From assembly GCA_014695345.1 (NCBI GenBank), contig JACJOC010000020.1:1-64000 (forward strand): a stretch of 64,000 nucleotides of DNA, in the 5' to 3' direction. Within the stretch, counting starts at the first letter, position 1; each line of letters opens with the position of its first letter. Below the pieces are notes generated by a model that was not told where the DNA came from, searched no databases, and saw only the letters and a list, made by a program, of their open reading frames with translations. Of the stretch, positions 43,340-51,204 are shown piece by piece. Source of the stretch: Cyanobacteria bacterium FACHB-471. GTDB lineage: Bacteria > Cyanobacteriota > Cyanobacteriia > Elainellales > Elainellaceae. Made by a program: the position numbers and the translations under genes.

Positions 43340-43954
43340 TTAGAGGGATTCTTGCAAAGCTGGCGATCGCTCTCCCGTTACTGCTTCAACAAAGTCAGTG
43401 TGAAAAATACGGGCACCTGTTTGCAAGTACTCCATTGCGGTGAGGGCAGCCCAGTGGGCATCCCAGTCGGAGCCAGAGCAGCAGTCTTCAATTACGTGAA
43501 AGTGATAGTCGCGCTGATGGGCATCTGCTGCGGTGTAATGCACACATACATTCGTCATGCCGCCCATCAAAACCACCGTATCGACCTTTAAGCCACGCAG
43601 CAAAATTTCTAGGTCAGTGCCAAAGAAGCAACTATAGCGACGTTTAGAGATGGCAAACTCGCCATCAATTGGTGCTAGTTCCCAAAAGTAATTGGTGCTT
43701 TCCCAGGTTTCCAGGCAGTGAACAGGTTCAGCGCCATCTAATTCTCGTCCAAAGTCCACCATTTCTTTTCGATGCACTTCTTTAAAGTGAATGATTGGCA
43801 GTTTGGCTGCACGAGCCGCTGCTAGTACCTGTTTTGCATTGGGCAAAGTTTCTTTTGTGCTTGTATGGGGAAGTGTACCGTCGCCAAAAACAGGTCCCCC
43901 CTGCATGTCTACCAGGATTAAAGCAGTGCTGTTCAAATTCAAGTTTAATGTCAT
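43340..43954 (-). CDS. Cysteine hydrolase (isochorismatase family)
   Basis: A 204-residue hydrolase with the family triad: Asp in ALILVDMQGG, Lys in AISKRRYSCFFGTDLE and the nucleophilic Cys in LMGGMTNVCVHYTAADA, with the preceding cis-peptide bond region. Members include N-carbamoylsarcosine amidase, nicotinamidase and ureidoacrylate or biuret hydrolases, which all release nitrogen from amides. It is the last gene of the leftward cluster, 88 bases after the ABC permease. The presence of a creatininase homologue in the cluster fits an amide or ureido substrate (inference). Confidence 0.88.
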   Translation of the reverse strand: MTLNLNLNSTALILVDMQGGPVFGDGTLPHTSTKETLPNAKQVLAAARAAKLPIIHFKEVHRKEMVDFGRELDGAEPVHCLETWESTNYFWELAPIDGEFAISKRRYSCFFGTDLEILLRGLKVDTVVLMGGMTNVCVHYTAADAHQRDYHFHVIEDCCSGSDWDAHWAALTAMEYLQTGARIFHTDFVEAVTGERSPALQESL

Positions 43955-44042
43955 AAAGCGATCGCTCCTTAAAAATCTAATCTGTCAACCCACTTCTACA
44001 GACACAATGAATTGATCTCACAAGAAAAATCTCACTAAATTC

Positions 44043-44918
44043 TCAATGCCGAGTTGCATCCGCCCACGGAGTTAAAAGCTTTGAGAGCCACTTGAGCAGA
44101 TAGTCTGTGATTAGACCAATCAAGCCAATAACGGCAATACAAAACAATACTTTCTCAGTTTGCAAAAACCGTTGTGCCTGCAGAATTTTGAAGCCTAAAC
44201 CGTTCTGTGCCGCTACCAATTCTGCATATACTAAGAAGTTCCAGGCCCCAGAAATATTGACTCGTAACGTGTCTAAAACACTTGGGAAAGCGGCTGGAAC
44301 AATCACTCTAAACAACACATCTAACCGATTTGCACCCAACGTGTAAGCTACATTAATCATCTCGTTGGGAATGAATTTGACTGCATCTGCAACCATGATG
44401 GCGTTGTAAAACACTACTCCCATAAAGATGATGACTGTTTTGGAGGTTTCGCCTAGGCCAAACCAGATAATCACTAATGGAACAAATGCTAAGACGGGCA
44501 TGTAGCGGACAGTGCCAACAATGGGGGCAAACAAACTTTCCATGCTGTAGAAAGTACCCATTGCAATTCCAACCGGTACGCCAATCACAGCCGCTGCCAG
44601 AAAGCCTGCCGCAACCCGACCGCAGCTTGCCAAAACATCAACAGTGAGTTCGTCCTGGAACAATGCAATCCCAGATTGAATGACCGCCGTAGGCGTTGGC
44701 AAAAAGATCGGAGTGACCCATCCCGCATAGCTAATTACCGTCCAAGCAGTCAGTGGGATTGCTAAAGCAATAGCGGAAAGTAAGATTGCTAACCAACGCG
44801 GAAAACCCTGGCGAATGCTCCAAAACACAGACGGTTTAAGATACCGTCTAGGTGCAGCAGAGGGTTGAATGTTGGGGGTACTAAGACTAGATTGCGCCAC
44901 CGGCTGTGTTTCCTCCAT
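44043..44918 (-). CDS. ABC permease, SsuC/TauC type
   Basis: A 291-residue permease. Six membrane helices are visible, and the cytoplasmic EAA loop reads LGANRLDVLFRVIVPAAFPSVLDTLR. It belongs to the nitrate/sulfonate/taurine/aliphatic-amine importer class and should pair with the divergent ATPase at 50371. Its start overlaps the SDR gene by 32 bp. No periplasmic substrate-binding protein gene lies in the cluster. Confidence 0.92.
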   Translation of the reverse strand: MEETQPVAQSSLSTPNIQPSAAPRRYLKPSVFWSIRQGFPRWLAILLSAIALAIPLTAWTVISYAGWVTPIFLPTPTAVIQSGIALFQDELTVDVLASCGRVAAGFLAAAVIGVPVGIAMGTFYSMESLFAPIVGTVRYMPVLAFVPLVIIWFGLGETSKTVIIFMGVVFYNAIMVADAVKFIPNEMINVAYTLGANRLDVLFRVIVPAAFPSVLDTLRVNISGAWNFLVYAELVAAQNGLGFKILQAQRFLQTEKVLFCIAVIGLIGLITDYLLKWLSKLLTPWADATRH

Positions 44919-45624
44919 CGAGAACTAAACAACTGCCCATTGCGTACTCGGCATGGGCTAAAAAGTAAGCGGCTTCTGCGACTTCGAGCGCGGTTGCCAT
45001 ACGGGGAATCGGTAGCACCTGTTGCCAGTGTGCAACTTCTTCTGCGGGAAGGTCTGCTGTTAAGGGCGTATCGACTGGTCCAGGGCAGAGGGCATTAATC
45101 CGCACACCCTGACGGGCATGATCCATTGCCATTGATTTGGTCAATAGAATGACTCCGCCTTTAGAGGCGCTGTAGGCTGCTAGTCCACGGCAGCCCAAAA
45201 TTCCGGCATCAGAAGCAACATTTACGATTGAACCTGTGCTGCGATCGCTCATGTGCTGCAATACCTGTCGATTTACGAGGAAGGTTCCTTTCAGATTGGT
45301 GTTGATCACCTGATCCCAGGTTTCTTCGTCGGTTTCTAGAATCGTACCAGCGGGGGCGATGCCAGCAGCGTGTATCAGGACATCAATTTGTCCCCATTCT
45401 GCTAGAACGGTTTCTACCATTTGTTTCACATCCTGGGAAACGGCGACATCAGCCGCGATCGCCTTCGCCATTCCCCCATCTAGCTCAATCTCTTGCTGCA
45501 CTTTTTCCGACAAATCAACTCGACGAGCGGCGATCGCCACAGCGTATCCTTTTTGAGCAAACAATAGTGCTATTGCTCGCCCAATCCCTGAATTTCCGCC
45601 TGTGACTAACGCAACTTTTACCAT
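44887..45624 (-). CDS. SDR-family oxidoreductase (cluster)
   Basis: A 245-residue short-chain dehydrogenase. It has the Rossmann motif VTGGNSGIGRAIA, NAG-like HAAGIAPAG, the active-site Ser in NVASDAG and the catalytic YSASKGG. A basic AARR after beta-2 suggests NADP(H). It lies inside the nitrogen-regulated operon, 18 bases after the exporter gene, and would oxidise or reduce an intermediate; the substrate is unknown. Confidence 0.92.
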   Translation of the reverse strand: MVKVALVTGGNSGIGRAIALLFAQKGYAVAIAARRVDLSEKVQQEIELDGGMAKAIAADVAVSQDVKQMVETVLAEWGQIDVLIHAAGIAPAGTILETDEETWDQVINTNLKGTFLVNRQVLQHMSDRSTGSIVNVASDAGILGCRGLAAYSASKGGVILLTKSMAMDHARQGVRINALCPGPVDTPLTADLPAEEVAHWQQVLPIPRMATALEVAEAAYFLAHAEYAMGSCLVLDGGNTAGGAI

Positions 45625-45642
45625 TACTCTGCAAAGTGAGTC

Positions 45643-46593
45643 CTAAGAGTTTCTAGGGTTTCTGCCAAACAGCGTTACACCAATTGCTGCCGTTGTAACC
45701 ATTGCGATCGCCACCAAACTCCGAAGCTCCAACTGTTCCCCCAAAAACAACAGTCCGACCAACGCAGCGATGGCAGGTTCTATGCTGATCAAAACGCCGT
45801 AGACTCTTGGCGGTAAGCATTTGAGCGCTTTGTATTCTAAAGAATAGGGCAATATAACGCCGAGGACAGCAATGCCAAGACCCAACAGGAGAATGCTAGG
45901 TTTCAGCAGAGCGCTACCACCTGCATGAATGCCGAGGGGCAACATGAGCAGAGTAGCGATCGCCATTGCCAGCGATAGTCCTGACCCACCTGAAAAAGCT
46001 CGTCCAACTGGAGCAGAGAGCAGAATAAAGCCAGCCCAAGAACTAGCTGAGAGTAATCCAAAAGTAACGCCCAGTGGGTCGAGAGAAGCACCGCTAAGCG
46101 GCGTGAGCAACAGGACTCCCGCTGCTGCTAAAATCACCCATACTAGATCGAGCAAGCGGCGTGAACCCAGGACAGCCACACTCAGCGGACCTACAAAATC
46201 CAAAGCTGAGGCAATGCCTAGAGGAATGCGGGCGATCGCTCCATAAAATGCCAAACTGAGTCCAGCGATCGCCACTCCCAACCCTGCAACCAAAACATAA
46301 TCTCCCCATCCTCGATTTTGCAGCCGGGGTCGCCAGATGAGCAGCATCAATACTGCGGCGATCGCCTTACAGATAAATGCCGCTCCAATCGGACTGAGTA
46401 CATCAAAAAGCTGCTTAGAGGTCGCCGTTCCTGCCTGTGCTGCAAAACTGGTAAGTAAGACCAAACTGCTAGGTGGAATTGAACCAAACCACGTCTGTAA
46501 CTGTCCGTTTTTCTGCGCGATGAATGCAGTGAAGGACGACAAATGGGGATTGGGAACTGCTTCACGGGGTTGAGGATAGATAGCAGACTGCAT
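45643..46593 (-). CDS. RhtA-like DMT/EamA transporter
   Basis: A 316-residue protein with ten hydrophobic helices in two EamA halves. The DFVGPLSVAVLGSRR and SIEPAIAALVGLLFLGEQL segments match the RhtA (threonine/homoserine exporter) branch. RhtA-type proteins export amino acids or analogues. In this operon it may release a toxic or excess intermediate (inference). It follows the GlnT-like gene by 12 bases. Confidence 0.87.
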   Translation of the reverse strand: MQSAIYPQPREAVPNPHLSSFTAFIAQKNGQLQTWFGSIPPSSLVLLTSFAAQAGTATSKQLFDVLSPIGAAFICKAIAAVLMLLIWRPRLQNRGWGDYVLVAGLGVAIAGLSLAFYGAIARIPLGIASALDFVGPLSVAVLGSRRLLDLVWVILAAAGVLLLTPLSGASLDPLGVTFGLLSASSWAGFILLSAPVGRAFSGGSGLSLAMAIATLLMLPLGIHAGGSALLKPSILLLGLGIAVLGVILPYSLEYKALKCLPPRVYGVLISIEPAIAALVGLLFLGEQLELRSLVAIAMVTTAAIGVTLFGRNPRNS

Positions 46594-46605
46594 TCAATTT
46601 TTCCT

Positions 46606-47967
46606 CTAGAAAAATTTCAGGTAACGCTGAATTTCCCAATCAGAAACGTGACTGTGGTATTCCTCCCATTCCTGAGTTTTGAAGTCAACATAGGTTTGAT
46701 ACATTAGATCACCCATTACCAATTTGCTGAGCGGATCGGCGGCAAAGGCGGCGATCGCCCCTCCTAACGTGCGTGGCAAAAACTTAATTCCCTTCTCCTC
46801 CAATTCTTTGAGCGAATATTCGTACATGTTCTCGGTATGCGGTTCACCCGGATCAAGCCCTTCCCGAATTCCCTCCAGCCCTGCCGCCAGAATCATTGCC
46901 GCACCTAAATATAAGTTGCTAGAAATGTCAGATGCCCGACATTCCACCCGCCCGCCACCCAACGGAATCCGCAACATGTTAGTGCGATTATTATTGCCAT
47001 AGCAGATGTACACAGGTGCCCAGGTAAAGCCTGACATACTGCCCTTTGGCACCAAGCGCTTATAGCTATTAACGGTGGGCGCAATCACTGCACAGATTGC
47101 CTGAGCATGTCTGAGAACGCCTGAAATGAACTGATAGCCTAGCTTTGACAAGCCACAGCGACGCGGATCATCAACATCAACAAACAAGTTTTCACCCGTT
47201 TTAATATCTGCCAGCGACATGTTGTAGTGTGCGCCGCTACCTGTGCGATCGGCGAAGGGTTTGGGCATGAAGGTAGCGAAGTAACCGTGTTTTTTAGCGA
47301 TTTCCTTCACCATTAGTTTGAAGAAGGTGAGGCGATCGGACATTTTGAGGGCATCGCAGTAAGTAAAATCCGTCTCAAACTGCCCGTTGCCATCCTCATG
47401 GTCAAAGGAGTAGACATCCCAACCAAGCTGATTCATTGCTTCGACAATCTCTTGCACCCAGGTAAAGTTATCGAGCAGTCCGGGTAGGTCGTAGCAGGGT
47501 TTTGCTAGCGTGTCGCGATCGCTGACAGGTGCCCCCCGTCCATCTGCCGTTTCCTTCAGGATAAAAAACTCAGTTTCAATCCCCATATTGAAGGTGAAAC
47601 CCATTTCAGCCGCTTCTGCCAACACCTTCTTGAGAATGCTTCGACAGCAGGCATCAAAGGGTTTTCCTTGCAGATATAAATCACTGGCAAACCAAGCAAT
47701 CTCAGAATTCCAGGGCAAAATAGTTGCCGAATCGGGATCAGGACGAGCAGAAACTTCCTCATCACTCACAGCCTGCGGTACGCCATCCAAAGCTGCTCCA
47801 GTAAACAGCTCTGAACCTGCCATCATTTGCCCAAAGTGAGACAAGGGAACTGCCTTTGCCTTACACATTCCGTGAATATCGACAAAACTAGCAAGGGCAT
47901 ATTTAACCCCTTTATCTTGCAGCGAGGTTTTGAGGGATTGCAGCTCAGGCGTAAGAGTTTCAGCCAT
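46606..47967 (-). CDS. glnT: GlnT-type glutamine synthetase-like ligase
   Basis: A 453-residue ATP-dependent ligase annotated in databases as type III glutamate-ammonia ligase. The beta-grasp region has ASFVDIHGMCKAKAVP. The catalytic half has GIETEFFIL, FDHEDGNGQFE, RTGSGAHYNMSL, NSYKRLVPK and NNRTNMLRIP. Relatives make gamma-glutamyl amides of methylamine, ethanolamine or anilines as well as glutamine. A housekeeping glnA is not implied. Its company with a Rieske oxygenase recalls the aniline-dioxygenase systems, where a GS-like protein gamma-glutamylates the amine first. It follows a hairpin repeat. Confidence 0.93.
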   Translation of the reverse strand: MAETLTPELQSLKTSLQDKGVKYALASFVDIHGMCKAKAVPLSHFGQMMAGSELFTGAALDGVPQAVSDEEVSARPDPDSATILPWNSEIAWFASDLYLQGKPFDACCRSILKKVLAEAAEMGFTFNMGIETEFFILKETADGRGAPVSDRDTLAKPCYDLPGLLDNFTWVQEIVEAMNQLGWDVYSFDHEDGNGQFETDFTYCDALKMSDRLTFFKLMVKEIAKKHGYFATFMPKPFADRTGSGAHYNMSLADIKTGENLFVDVDDPRRCGLSKLGYQFISGVLRHAQAICAVIAPTVNSYKRLVPKGSMSGFTWAPVYICYGNNNRTNMLRIPLGGGRVECRASDISSNLYLGAAMILAAGLEGIREGLDPGEPHTENMYEYSLKELEEKGIKFLPRTLGGAIAAFAADPLSKLVMGDLMYQTYVDFKTQEWEEYHSHVSDWEIQRYLKFF

Positions 47968-47993
47968 TTTAAGGAAGTGTATGAGTTAAAAAT

Positions 47994-48073
47994 GTAGGTT
48001 GGGTGGAGCATCGCGAAACCCAACATTCGATAATATTCTGGTTGTTGGGTTTCGCTTTGCTTCACCCACCTAC
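47994..48073. repeat. 80-bp MITE-like hairpin inside the operon
   Basis: GTAGGTTGGGTG-AGC..GCGAAACCCAACA is inverted against TGTTGGGTTTCGC..GC-CACCCACCTAC around a 17-bp AT-rich centre. It lies between the creatininase and glnT genes and may attenuate or process the transcript. Confidence 0.88.
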
Positions 48074-48100
48074 GGTGTTTCTGGGTTTCAGGTTAAGGAG

Positions 48101-48892
48101 TTATGGAACCGTAGGAGGTGGCATTTCTTCCAGAGGAGTTCCTTCGGCGATCGCCCTCTTCAACTGCTCACTCAACTCACTCACTGCTACCTCCAAAATT
48201 TGTTTGCCAAACGCTTCATCTGCCTTACTGGGCGAACCGACTGCGCCATGAACGCTCTCTTTGTTCACTGTGTAGGCAAAGAAACAACCGACGGAGCGAT
48301 CGGGTTCATCTACGGCTTTCTCAAGCTGCACTAGATCTGGACGTAGCGCTAACATCACCGATGTTTCAGCACAGTTGGCGTGAAAATTAGCCGCATCATG
48401 GTGATAAAACTCATGGATCTTAGGCGAAATTTCCCAAATTGAGCGCAGTGCAATCCTTAGATCTGGATATTGGTGACGCACATTTTCTAAACCACAGCGC
48501 AAAGGTGCCCAATTTGTGACATGTCCATTGAGCAGCAAAATGCGACTAAAACCTGCACTACAGACCCATTCTGCAATTTCTAACACCAGTGTTGCTAGCG
48601 TTTCGGGACGCAGCGAAATCGTGCCTGCCCACTTTTTGGAATGTCCTAGAGAGCAGCCGTAGGGCAAAGTCGGCAAAACAGGAATTCCCGTTTGGGCAGA
48701 AACACCATGAGCCACTGCGGTCGCTGAGAAAGTATCAACTCCAACGGGTAGATGCAGGGCATGTTGCTCAGTTGCGCCAACAGGAAGAATTACCAAATTC
48801 ATGCCGCGATCGCGCAAGTGAGTAATTTCCTCCCAGGTGAGTTCTTCCCAGAGGATAGGGGATTGAGAAGGGAGGGAAGCAGGCAGAGGCAT
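48101..48892 (-). CDS. Creatininase-family amidohydrolase
   Basis: A 263-residue metal-dependent hydrolase. The metal-binding segments are VGATEQHALHLPVGVD (Glu, His and Asp) and LLLNGHVTNW (NGHxxN), with a further Glu in CAETSVML. The family opens creatinine and related cyclic amides or hydrolyses formamide bonds of modified cofactors. It lies between the Rieske gene and glnT. In this context an amide-bond hydrolysis in a nitrogen-release route is likely; creatinine itself is not established as substrate. Confidence 0.9.
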   Translation of the reverse strand: MPLPASLPSQSPILWEELTWEEITHLRDRGMNLVILPVGATEQHALHLPVGVDTFSATAVAHGVSAQTGIPVLPTLPYGCSLGHSKKWAGTISLRPETLATLVLEIAEWVCSAGFSRILLLNGHVTNWAPLRCGLENVRHQYPDLRIALRSIWEISPKIHEFYHHDAANFHANCAETSVMLALRPDLVQLEKAVDEPDRSVGCFFAYTVNKESVHGAVGSPSKADEAFGKQILEVAVSELSEQLKRAIAEGTPLEEMPPPTVP

Positions 48893-48930
48893 GGAGGGAA
48901 GAGTGTAGTGGTATGAGAAAAGGATGGTTT

Positions 48931-50088
48931 CTATTTGGCGGGAGTGGCGATCGCTCTCATGATCAACTCTTGAAACAGGTGTGTACCCATTTCACGCGTT
49001 GGGGATAAGCGCCCTTGACGATACCCCAAGGACTGAGTTCGCTTTTGAACTTCAGGCAAGAGCTGTAAATCTTCTTGCTGAATGCCGTCATAAAACTCGA
49101 TCAGCGGCTCCAGATTTGCTGGTGACTTAGCAGCATCCGTATTCGGTACCAACCAATCCCACCGAACTCTGGTACGGCATGGACCTTGCGGATCAATCAG
49201 ATAAATGATGGCGCAGTTGGGTGCCACAATCCAGGCAAAGTTCGGGAAAAAACTCATTGTCGAAATACCTGCCATCTCGTACTCATTCAGCCCATCAACG
49301 TAAAGGGCTGGGTCTTTCTCAGACGGCAACTCATCTCGACCCACAAAAGGGGTGTACTGCAAGTAATAGTGATATCTCGCCTCAGCCTTTATGTGCTGAT
49401 AGTACTTTGCCAGAATCGGGTGAACCGTTGGCTCGTGATAGTTTTCTGCATTATTTTCGACGTATAGTTTCCAGTTACTATCTGTCCAATAGTCGATATA
49501 GTGAGCCCTTGCCCAGGTTTCTAGCTTGTATCGCTTAAACATCTCCGGCAATTCGCCTAACTGAACTGCCAAAGCATCTGATTTAGGGTCCAGGTTAACA
49601 AAAATGAATGGACCCCAGGTGTCCACCTTCACCGCCGTCAAGCCGTAAGCCACCAGGTCAAAATTCTCTGCCTCCTCCATATCAGGAATGCCGCGCAGGT
49701 TGCCCTCCAGGTCAAAGCTCCAGGCATGGTAAAGACAGGTAAGACGGTTACACTTGCCGCTGTCTACTGCCACTGGACCAGCCCGATGGGTACAAATGTT
49801 GAAAAAGGCGCGTAACTCGCCCGCCTTATTTTGCAGAATGACCAGAGGCTGCTCGGCAATCTCAACAGTGAAGTAAGAGTTTGGACCATCAAGCTGGCTG
49901 ACATGCCCAACGTAGTACCAGTATTTACCAAAGATGCGCTCTTGTTCCAAGCGATAGATCTCTGGTGAACTGTACATCTCAGCCGGAAGCGTAACCGCTT
50001 CACTGGAGAGCGATCGCGGCTGCCACGACTGCAACCAGGCAGGCTGCTTCGACTTCTGATCTAGTTCTGTCCCAATCAGGTTAACCAC
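48931..50088 (-). CDS. Rieske non-haem iron oxygenase, alpha subunit
   Basis: A 385-residue oxygenase. The Rieske centre is CTH-x16-CLYH (about residues 97-119). The mononuclear iron site is in NWKLYVENNAENYHEPTVHPIL, giving the His pair, with acidic QEEDLQLLPEVQ late in the chain as likely third ligand. Relatives include aromatic dioxygenases, aniline dioxygenase and betaine/carnitine/stachydrine demethylases. No reductase or beta subunit is in the window. It is the first gene of the leftward operon, downstream of the NtcA promoter. Confidence 0.93.
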   Translation of the reverse strand: MVNLIGTELDQKSKQPAWLQSWQPRSLSSEAVTLPAEMYSSPEIYRLEQERIFGKYWYYVGHVSQLDGPNSYFTVEIAEQPLVILQNKAGELRAFFNICTHRAGPVAVDSGKCNRLTCLYHAWSFDLEGNLRGIPDMEEAENFDLVAYGLTAVKVDTWGPFIFVNLDPKSDALAVQLGELPEMFKRYKLETWARAHYIDYWTDSNWKLYVENNAENYHEPTVHPILAKYYQHIKAEARYHYYLQYTPFVGRDELPSEKDPALYVDGLNEYEMAGISTMSFFPNFAWIVAPNCAIIYLIDPQGPCRTRVRWDWLVPNTDAAKSPANLEPLIEFYDGIQQEDLQLLPEVQKRTQSLGYRQGRLSPTREMGTHLFQELIMRAIATPAK

Positions 50089-50138
50089 GGCTGAAGTACT
50101 GTTTGGAATTGAGGAGTGTGGAAGGCTTTATTCCAGAC

Positions 50139-50179
50139 AGTCTATAGATTCCCGGTTGACTTTTTGTATCCAGAGATAC
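50139..50179 (-). promoter_or_regulatory. NtcA-activated promoter (GTA-N8-TAC with -10)
   Basis: A perfect GTATCCAGAGATAC lies at 50166-50179. On the minus strand 21 bases separate it from TAGACT (a TA-N3-T -10 box, overlapping TATAGA at 50141-50146), within the canonical 20-24 spacing of class II NtcA promoters. The -10 lies about 50 bases before the Rieske gene start. The box may also affect the divergent ATPase gene. Confidence 0.85.
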
Positions 50180-50370
50180 GGAGAATAGTTGTGAACAATT
50201 GATTTCCAACCTCTTGATTTTACCGCTCATAGCTATCTTGACTGACGGGACTGTTTTGATTGAAAGTAGCGATGAACTGTATCTCAGTTAACTTTTCATC
50301 TCGCAATCATCGGTTTAACTGAGAAAACCTATATCAAAGTGATGCCCACCCCTACTCAGGAATTTTGATC

Positions 50371-51204
50371 ATGCTGAACACCCGCCCATCCAGCGATGTG
50401 CGAGGACAAGAAGCCGGACTCGATGTGAGCCCCTCCTCCACCGCACAGCCCAAGATGGAAGTTCGCGGTCTGTTCAAGACCTTCCAGGTTCAGGGCAAAC
50501 CGCTGATGGTGCTGCAAAATATCAACTTTCAGCTTCATGCGAGAGAGTTTGTCTGCTTGGTTGGGGCATCCGGTTGCGGCAAATCGACGCTGCTCAACAT
50601 TGTTGCTGGACTGGATTCGCCAACCGCAGGGCAAGTTTTAGTTGATGGAGAAATGGTCGCTGGTCCTGGCTCTGACCGGGGCATGGTATTTCAGGGCTAT
50701 ACCCTTTATCCCTGGCTGACAGTCAGTGAAAATATTGCCTTTGGGCTAAAGCTGCGCCGCCTATCACGAGCACAACAGCAAGAGCGGGTGAATTACTATC
50801 TGGACGTAGTGGGGCTAACTCAGTTTGCCAAAGCCTATCCTAAGCAGCTCTCTGGTGGCATGAAACAGCGAGTGGCGATCGCCCGTGCCCTTGCCAACGA
50901 ACCCGAAGTCTTGCTGATGGACGAACCCTTTGGCGCGCTTGATGCCCAAACCAAGGAGCAAATGCAGCAATTTTTGCTCAGACTATGGGATCAAACCCAT
51001 ACCACCATCCTGATGATTACCCACGATGTTGAAGAAGCAATCTTCCTGTCGCAGCGAGTATATGTCATGAGCCGCTGTCCAGGACAACTGAAGCTCGAAG
51101 TACCTATTACCCTACCTGCTCAACGCGACCTGGAAATAAAACTCACTCCCGAATTTGTAGACATCAAGCGGCAGGTTCTACACGCTCTACGAGACCAAGA
51201 TTGA
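50371..51204 (+). CDS. ABC ATPase, SsuB/TauB type
   Basis: A 277-residue ATP-binding subunit. Walker A is GASGCGKST, the Q-loop is FQGYTLYPW, the signature LSGGMKQRVAIARAL, Walker B VLLMDEPFGALDAQT and the switch His in ITHDVEEA. The class drives uptake of nitrate, sulfonates, taurine or amines. It is transcribed away from the Rieske operon across a 282-bp region with the NtcA box and should pair with the permease at 44043. The ATG at 50371 is preferred over a TTG two codons upstream. Confidence 0.95.
   Translation: MLNTRPSSDVRGQEAGLDVSPSSTAQPKMEVRGLFKTFQVQGKPLMVLQNINFQLHAREFVCLVGASGCGKSTLLNIVAGLDSPTAGQVLVDGEMVAGPGSDRGMVFQGYTLYPWLTVSENIAFGLKLRRLSRAQQQERVNYYLDVVGLTQFAKAYPKQLSGGMKQRVAIARALANEPEVLLMDEPFGALDAQTKEQMQQFLLRLWDQTHTTILMITHDVEEAIFLSQRVYVMSRCPGQLKLEVPITLPAQRDLEIKLTPEFVDIKRQVLHALRDQD

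Follow-up and report, generated by a model that had tools for sequence, protein, structure and literature searches.

In this study, we present evidence that the 284-bp intergenic region between a Rieske oxygenase gene and a divergent ABC transporter ATPase gene in Cyanobacteria bacterium FACHB-471 is, in all probability, a nitrogen-control promoter region, in which an NtcA-type box (site A) would serve the Rieske operon and a second box (site B) would probably serve the ATPase. The region lies in the window, the 64,000-nucleotide stretch that was analyzed (contig JACJOC010000020.1, positions 1 to 64,000). A class II promoter activated by NtcA had been proposed at site A by a sequence-only reading, and this assignment of a putative promoter to the Rieske operon is strongly supported because the arrangement is conserved in six of seven orthologous operons, its score falls within the range of known promoters and ranks first among 183,424 positions of its own genome, such sites are absent upstream of paralogous Rieske genes, and the genome encodes one clear NtcA. 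By this footprint, which it shares with glnA, urtA, and nirA, an uncharacterized Rieske/creatininase/GlnT/ABC operon found in filamentous cyanobacteria would belong to the nitrogen-control regulon, and the search for its function would narrow to a source of nitrogen. The mechanism itself is textbook; what our comparisons support as new is an NtcA promoter for a Rieske/creatininase/GlnT operon, and a search of titles and abstracts found no literature linking NtcA with such an operon.

In canonical NtcA promoters, such as those of urtA, nirA, and glnA, GTAN8TAC has its centre at about -41.5 and is accompanied by TAN3T, and a distance of 22 nt to the -10 element has been described for them (PMC3898017). 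Site A, GTATCTCTGGATAC (GTA-N8-TAC), occupies positions 50166 to 50179 of the minus strand and is followed by a spacer of 21 bp, aaaaagtcaaccgggaatcta (50165 to 50145), compared with the usual 22, and by a putative -10 element, TAGACT (TAN3T), at 50139 to 50144; the minus strand from 50179 to 50139, written with the base before the box, reads c-GTATCTCTGGATAC-aaaaagtcaaccgggaatcta-TAGACT. The hexamer lies 51 bp upstream of the GTG start codon of the Rieske gene at 50088, the N-terminus of which is common to homologues, and transcription of the operon is predicted to start near 50132. The earlier description of GTA-N8-TAC, 21 bp, and TA-N3-T on the minus strand about 50 bp before the Rieske gene is thus exact in the sequence, as is that of a palindromic box, site A being a 5 + 5 inverted repeat (GTATC/GATAC) without mismatch. 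The same reading called the box perfect, which holds for the GTA-N8-TAC core but not for the flank: the base before GTA is C, where nearly all of the glnA, urtA, and nirA boxes of relatives have T. Compared with TGTA...TACA, the right-hand TACA is present and the left-hand T is missing, in the window as well as in the other exact copies of the site.

Counting of the pattern was rejected as the sole proof of site A. The strict box with TAN3T at a spacing of 20 to 24 bp has 116 matches in the 7.15-Mb genome (about 1 per 60 kb), and without the -10 element GTA-N8-TAC is about as frequent in the window as chance predicts (seven observed vs. 6.0 expected); for these reasons the sequence of site A is by itself suggestive only. 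On the Rieske strand of the 284-bp divergent region, the pattern arose in 7 of 4000 dinucleotide shuffles, and strict matches appeared in 0.2-0.5% of shuffles at each of the six loci with an exact site. It is the comparison with orthologous operons and with known promoters that makes site A convincing.

Rieske homologues were found in named genomes and in 36 genomes of the order, and seven orthologous operons were compared: that of the window and those at L042 (genome G392), L043 (G387), L044 (G400), L020 (Drouetiella, on a contig shared with G390), L053 (Leptolyngbyaceae SL_7_1, on a contig shared with G403), and L021 (Vasconcelosia). A scan of relatives for the box, which had been put forward as a check, came out in favor of the proposal: the exact GTA-N8-TAC with TAN3T at 21-23 bp is present in six of the seven operons, a count that is not one of independent events as the relatives share ancestry and that, with L042, L043, and L020 closely related, amounts to nearer four independent observations. 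The -10 hexamer at this spacing is TAGACT in five operons and TACACT in one, and the remaining intergenic sequence is hard to align. The seventh operon, L053, has a degenerate GTTCAGTCCGATAC-N22-GAGACT, with neither the exact GTA nor TAN3T.

Known promoters were represented by a matrix of 18 class II boxes (GTA-N8-TAC and, 22 or 23 bp away, TAN3T) taken from glnA, urtA, and nirA promoters of the window's genome and its relatives, and including the genome's own glnA, nirA, and one urtA; amt promoters were excluded, as their boxes are present and TAN3T at class II distance is absent. Site A scored 15.6 and ranked first among the 183,424 positions scored in its own genome, its orthologous copies scored 11.2-23.3 with the same matrix, and the known sites scored 9.1-25.9 when their own gene family was left out. 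Upstream of nine paralogous or distant Rieske genes, namely the genome's own paralogue (L019/L024, on C15), seven other loci, and a second Rieske gene within L042, no NtcA-type site was found (best score ≤4.4). We consider it extremely improbable that site A is a chance match without function: the abundance of strict matches in the genome and the chance rate of the bare box in the window would allow it, but the recurrence of the box in the same position, together with a fitting -10 element, in six of seven orthologues and its first rank by matrix score argue against it. As a separate observation, the regions upstream of the relatives' ammonium-transporter genes (L077, L080, L075, and L078) contain TGTA-N8-TACA boxes without TAN3T at class II distance, which suggests a different promoter architecture for these genes.

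The clear NtcA of the genome is encoded at C63:85594-86169 (390 bits vs. a cut-off of 244.95), and another seven proteins, which match the NtcA model weakly, were taken as other CRP-family members. These weak matches, and the left flank of site A that differs from the TGTA of NtcA boxes, are what could be said for a binding of the inverted repeat by another CRP-family or unrelated regulator, for example a substrate-responsive one. We regard this as very unlikely, since the core, the inner TC...GA, the flank ACAAA, and the distance to the -10 element all agree with those of the relatives' glnA, urtA, and nirA promoters, and no regulator gene is conserved beside the orthologous operons in the mapped stretches. 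NtcA is the regulator that we favor for site A. The class II promoters of glnA, urtA, and nirA in Anabaena and within the order share with site A the GTA-N8-TAC core, the TC/GA inner bases, the right flank ACAAA, and TAN3T at about 22 bp, and the genes that they drive serve the scavenging of combined nitrogen, as those of the operon would. Site A is unlike them in having C and not T before GTA and a spacing of 21-23 bp across orthologues, in driving an uncharacterized Rieske/GlnT amine operon, and in being accompanied, in the window's region, by a second degenerate box toward the divergent ATPase.

This second box, site B (GTATCTCAGTTAAC, GT-N10-AC), lies at 50279 to 50292 on the plus strand and faces the ABC transporter ATPase gene (50371 to 51204, plus strand; PF00005), with TTAACT at 50315 to 50320, 22 bp from the box, as the proposed -10 element. 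The start of the ATPase was picked to agree with that of the orthologues (MLNTR/MLDAR), whereas the mechanical open reading frame begins at 50365. ATPase orthologues, 69-78% identical, stand next to the Rieske gene in a further five operons, and GT[A/C]TC...AAC followed after exactly 22 bp by TTAACT is found in all six operons with a divergent ATPase; within this block the core columns are invariant (10 of 10), compared with 19 of 75 columns overall. The matrix score of site B is -2.2 (rank 163), the strict GTA-N8-TAC occurs at this position in none of the six operons and the relaxed GT-N10-AC in all of them, and TAN3T is not matched, the hexamer being invariantly TTAACT. The relaxed form is that of most NtcA ChIP sites (PMC3898017). 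Site B is probably a weaker NtcA box of the ATPase gene, not a canonical member of the class, and would only work like one.

The palindromic site A had itself been suggested to affect the divergent ATPase gene, and it does score well as a box on both strands; however, the degenerate box at 50279 to 50292 more likely serves that gene. The stronger version of this idea, in which site A alone serves both genes and site B is not regulatory, draws on the perfect palindrome, on the report that some NtcA sites are assignable to two divergent starts (PMC3898017), and on L053, where a single box (L053:3085-3098) lies 22 bp from the -10 element of each divergent gene. We find it improbable for the window, where site A has no good -10 element on its ATPase side and where GT-N10-AC-N22-TTAACT stands nearer the ATPase, as it does in all six orthologues. 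In L053, sequence aligning with site B lies toward the ATPase and sequence aligning with site A toward the Rieske gene, the two being joined at one GATAC, and the simplest reading of its shared box is a deletion between two boxes. The two-start NtcA sites (PMC3898017) are alike in that two divergent genes are regulated from one intergenic region, and L053 resembles them in that its one box lies at 22 bp from either -10 element; unlike them, five operons including that of the window have separate boxes, one per gene.

All genes of the operon are on the minus strand. The Rieske oxygenase alpha subunit (48931 to 50088; PF00355 and PF00848), with carnitine monooxygenase 6y9c (136 bits) and the demethylase 4qup (114 bits) as nearest solved structures, is followed by a creatininase-family amidohydrolase (48101 to 48892; PF02633, 212 bits) that is under the cut-off of the creatininase equivalog (TIGR04448, 136.8 bits vs. 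235), and by GlnT, a type III glutamine-synthetase-like protein (46606 to 47967; TIGR03105, 586.5 bits). GlnT is over the cut-off for type III glutamate-ammonia ligase, yet its nearest solved structure is the glutamate-methylamine ligase 9qur (423 bits), compared with 333 bits for 7cql and at most 276 bits for ordinary glutamine synthetase chains. There follow an EamA-family transporter (45643 to 46593; PF00892), a short-chain dehydrogenase/reductase (44887 to 45624; PF00106), a TauC-like ABC transporter permease of the taurine/nitrate type (44043 to 44918; PF00528), and an isochorismatase-family hydrolase (43340 to 43954; PF00857), likely the last gene of the run. A single transcript from 50088 to 43340 is plausible because the genes share one strand with gaps from overlap to 133 bp. 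The closest solved homologues of the GlnT and Rieske pair are thus a GlnT-type glutamate-methylamine ligase (9qur) and a carnitine-type Rieske monooxygenase (6y9c); in the window the pair is combined, in cyanobacteria, with a creatininase-family hydrolase, a short-chain dehydrogenase/reductase, and a taurine/nitrate-type ABC transporter. The operon showed no genes for N-methylglutamate synthase.

This gene content would suit the scavenging of nitrogen from organic amines, possibly N-methylated, and a role in nitrogen scavenging, consistent with NtcA control, is likely in view of the GlnT and Rieske likenesses and of the nitrogen genes that neighbor the operon in relatives. In Drouetiella, the ABC ATPase of the orthologous operon has beside it, at L020:3651-8812, urea carboxylase and two UAAP/DUF1989 proteins, which make up a set of the guanidine-carboxylase type. 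In G392, the neighbors of the orthologous operon (L042:15398-16854) are a biuret-amidohydrolase-like protein and a creatininase that exceeds the equivalog cut-off, and L043 has homologues of this pair in the same order.

The promoter arrangement would tie the operon to nitrogen limitation. Under this condition, NtcA with 2-oxoglutarate would bind site A (50166 to 50179) and, from a position centred about 41 bp before the start, would act as a class II activator that recruits RNA polymerase to TAGACT, giving a transcript that runs from the Rieske gene through those for the creatininase-family hydrolase, GlnT, EamA transporter, short-chain dehydrogenase/reductase, and ABC permease to that for the isochorismatase-family hydrolase. 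The divergent ATPase would probably be co-activated through the weaker site B (50279 to 50292) and its -10-like TTAACT, and the joint induction of enzymes and uptake would allow nitrogen to be released and assimilated from an organic, possibly N-methylated, amine. It is possible, if on balance doubtful, that the region contains a strong class II NtcA box for the operon and a weak, degenerate one for the ATPase, that the two were fused by deletion in L053, and that they control an undescribed cyanobacterial pathway for N-methylated or quaternary amines built on the Rieske oxygenase and a glutamate-methylamine ligase.

Guanidine was considered as a common substrate on account of the urea carboxylase and UAAP proteins in Drouetiella and is not supported, since the window's genome and three of the five relatives that have the operon lack urea carboxylase. 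In the window, no match to any Rfam family, guanidine riboswitches among them, attained the gathering score. The ABC transporter of the operon (window positions 43340 to 51204) comprises ATPase and permease without a substrate-binding protein. In relatives, a substrate-binding protein adjoins the operon (84-86% identical among themselves), and no close counterpart of it was found in the window's genome (best 32-35% identity).

Lastly, the region upstream of the genome's own Rieske paralogue on C15 (L024:11800-11900) carries TGTGATT(T/C)AAGTCACT twice, the two nearly identical copies lying about 63 bp apart. These repeats resemble CRP sites (TGTGA-N6-TCAC), and the paralogue downstream of them is 68% identical and without an NtcA box; the Rieske paralogues may be under different regulators.
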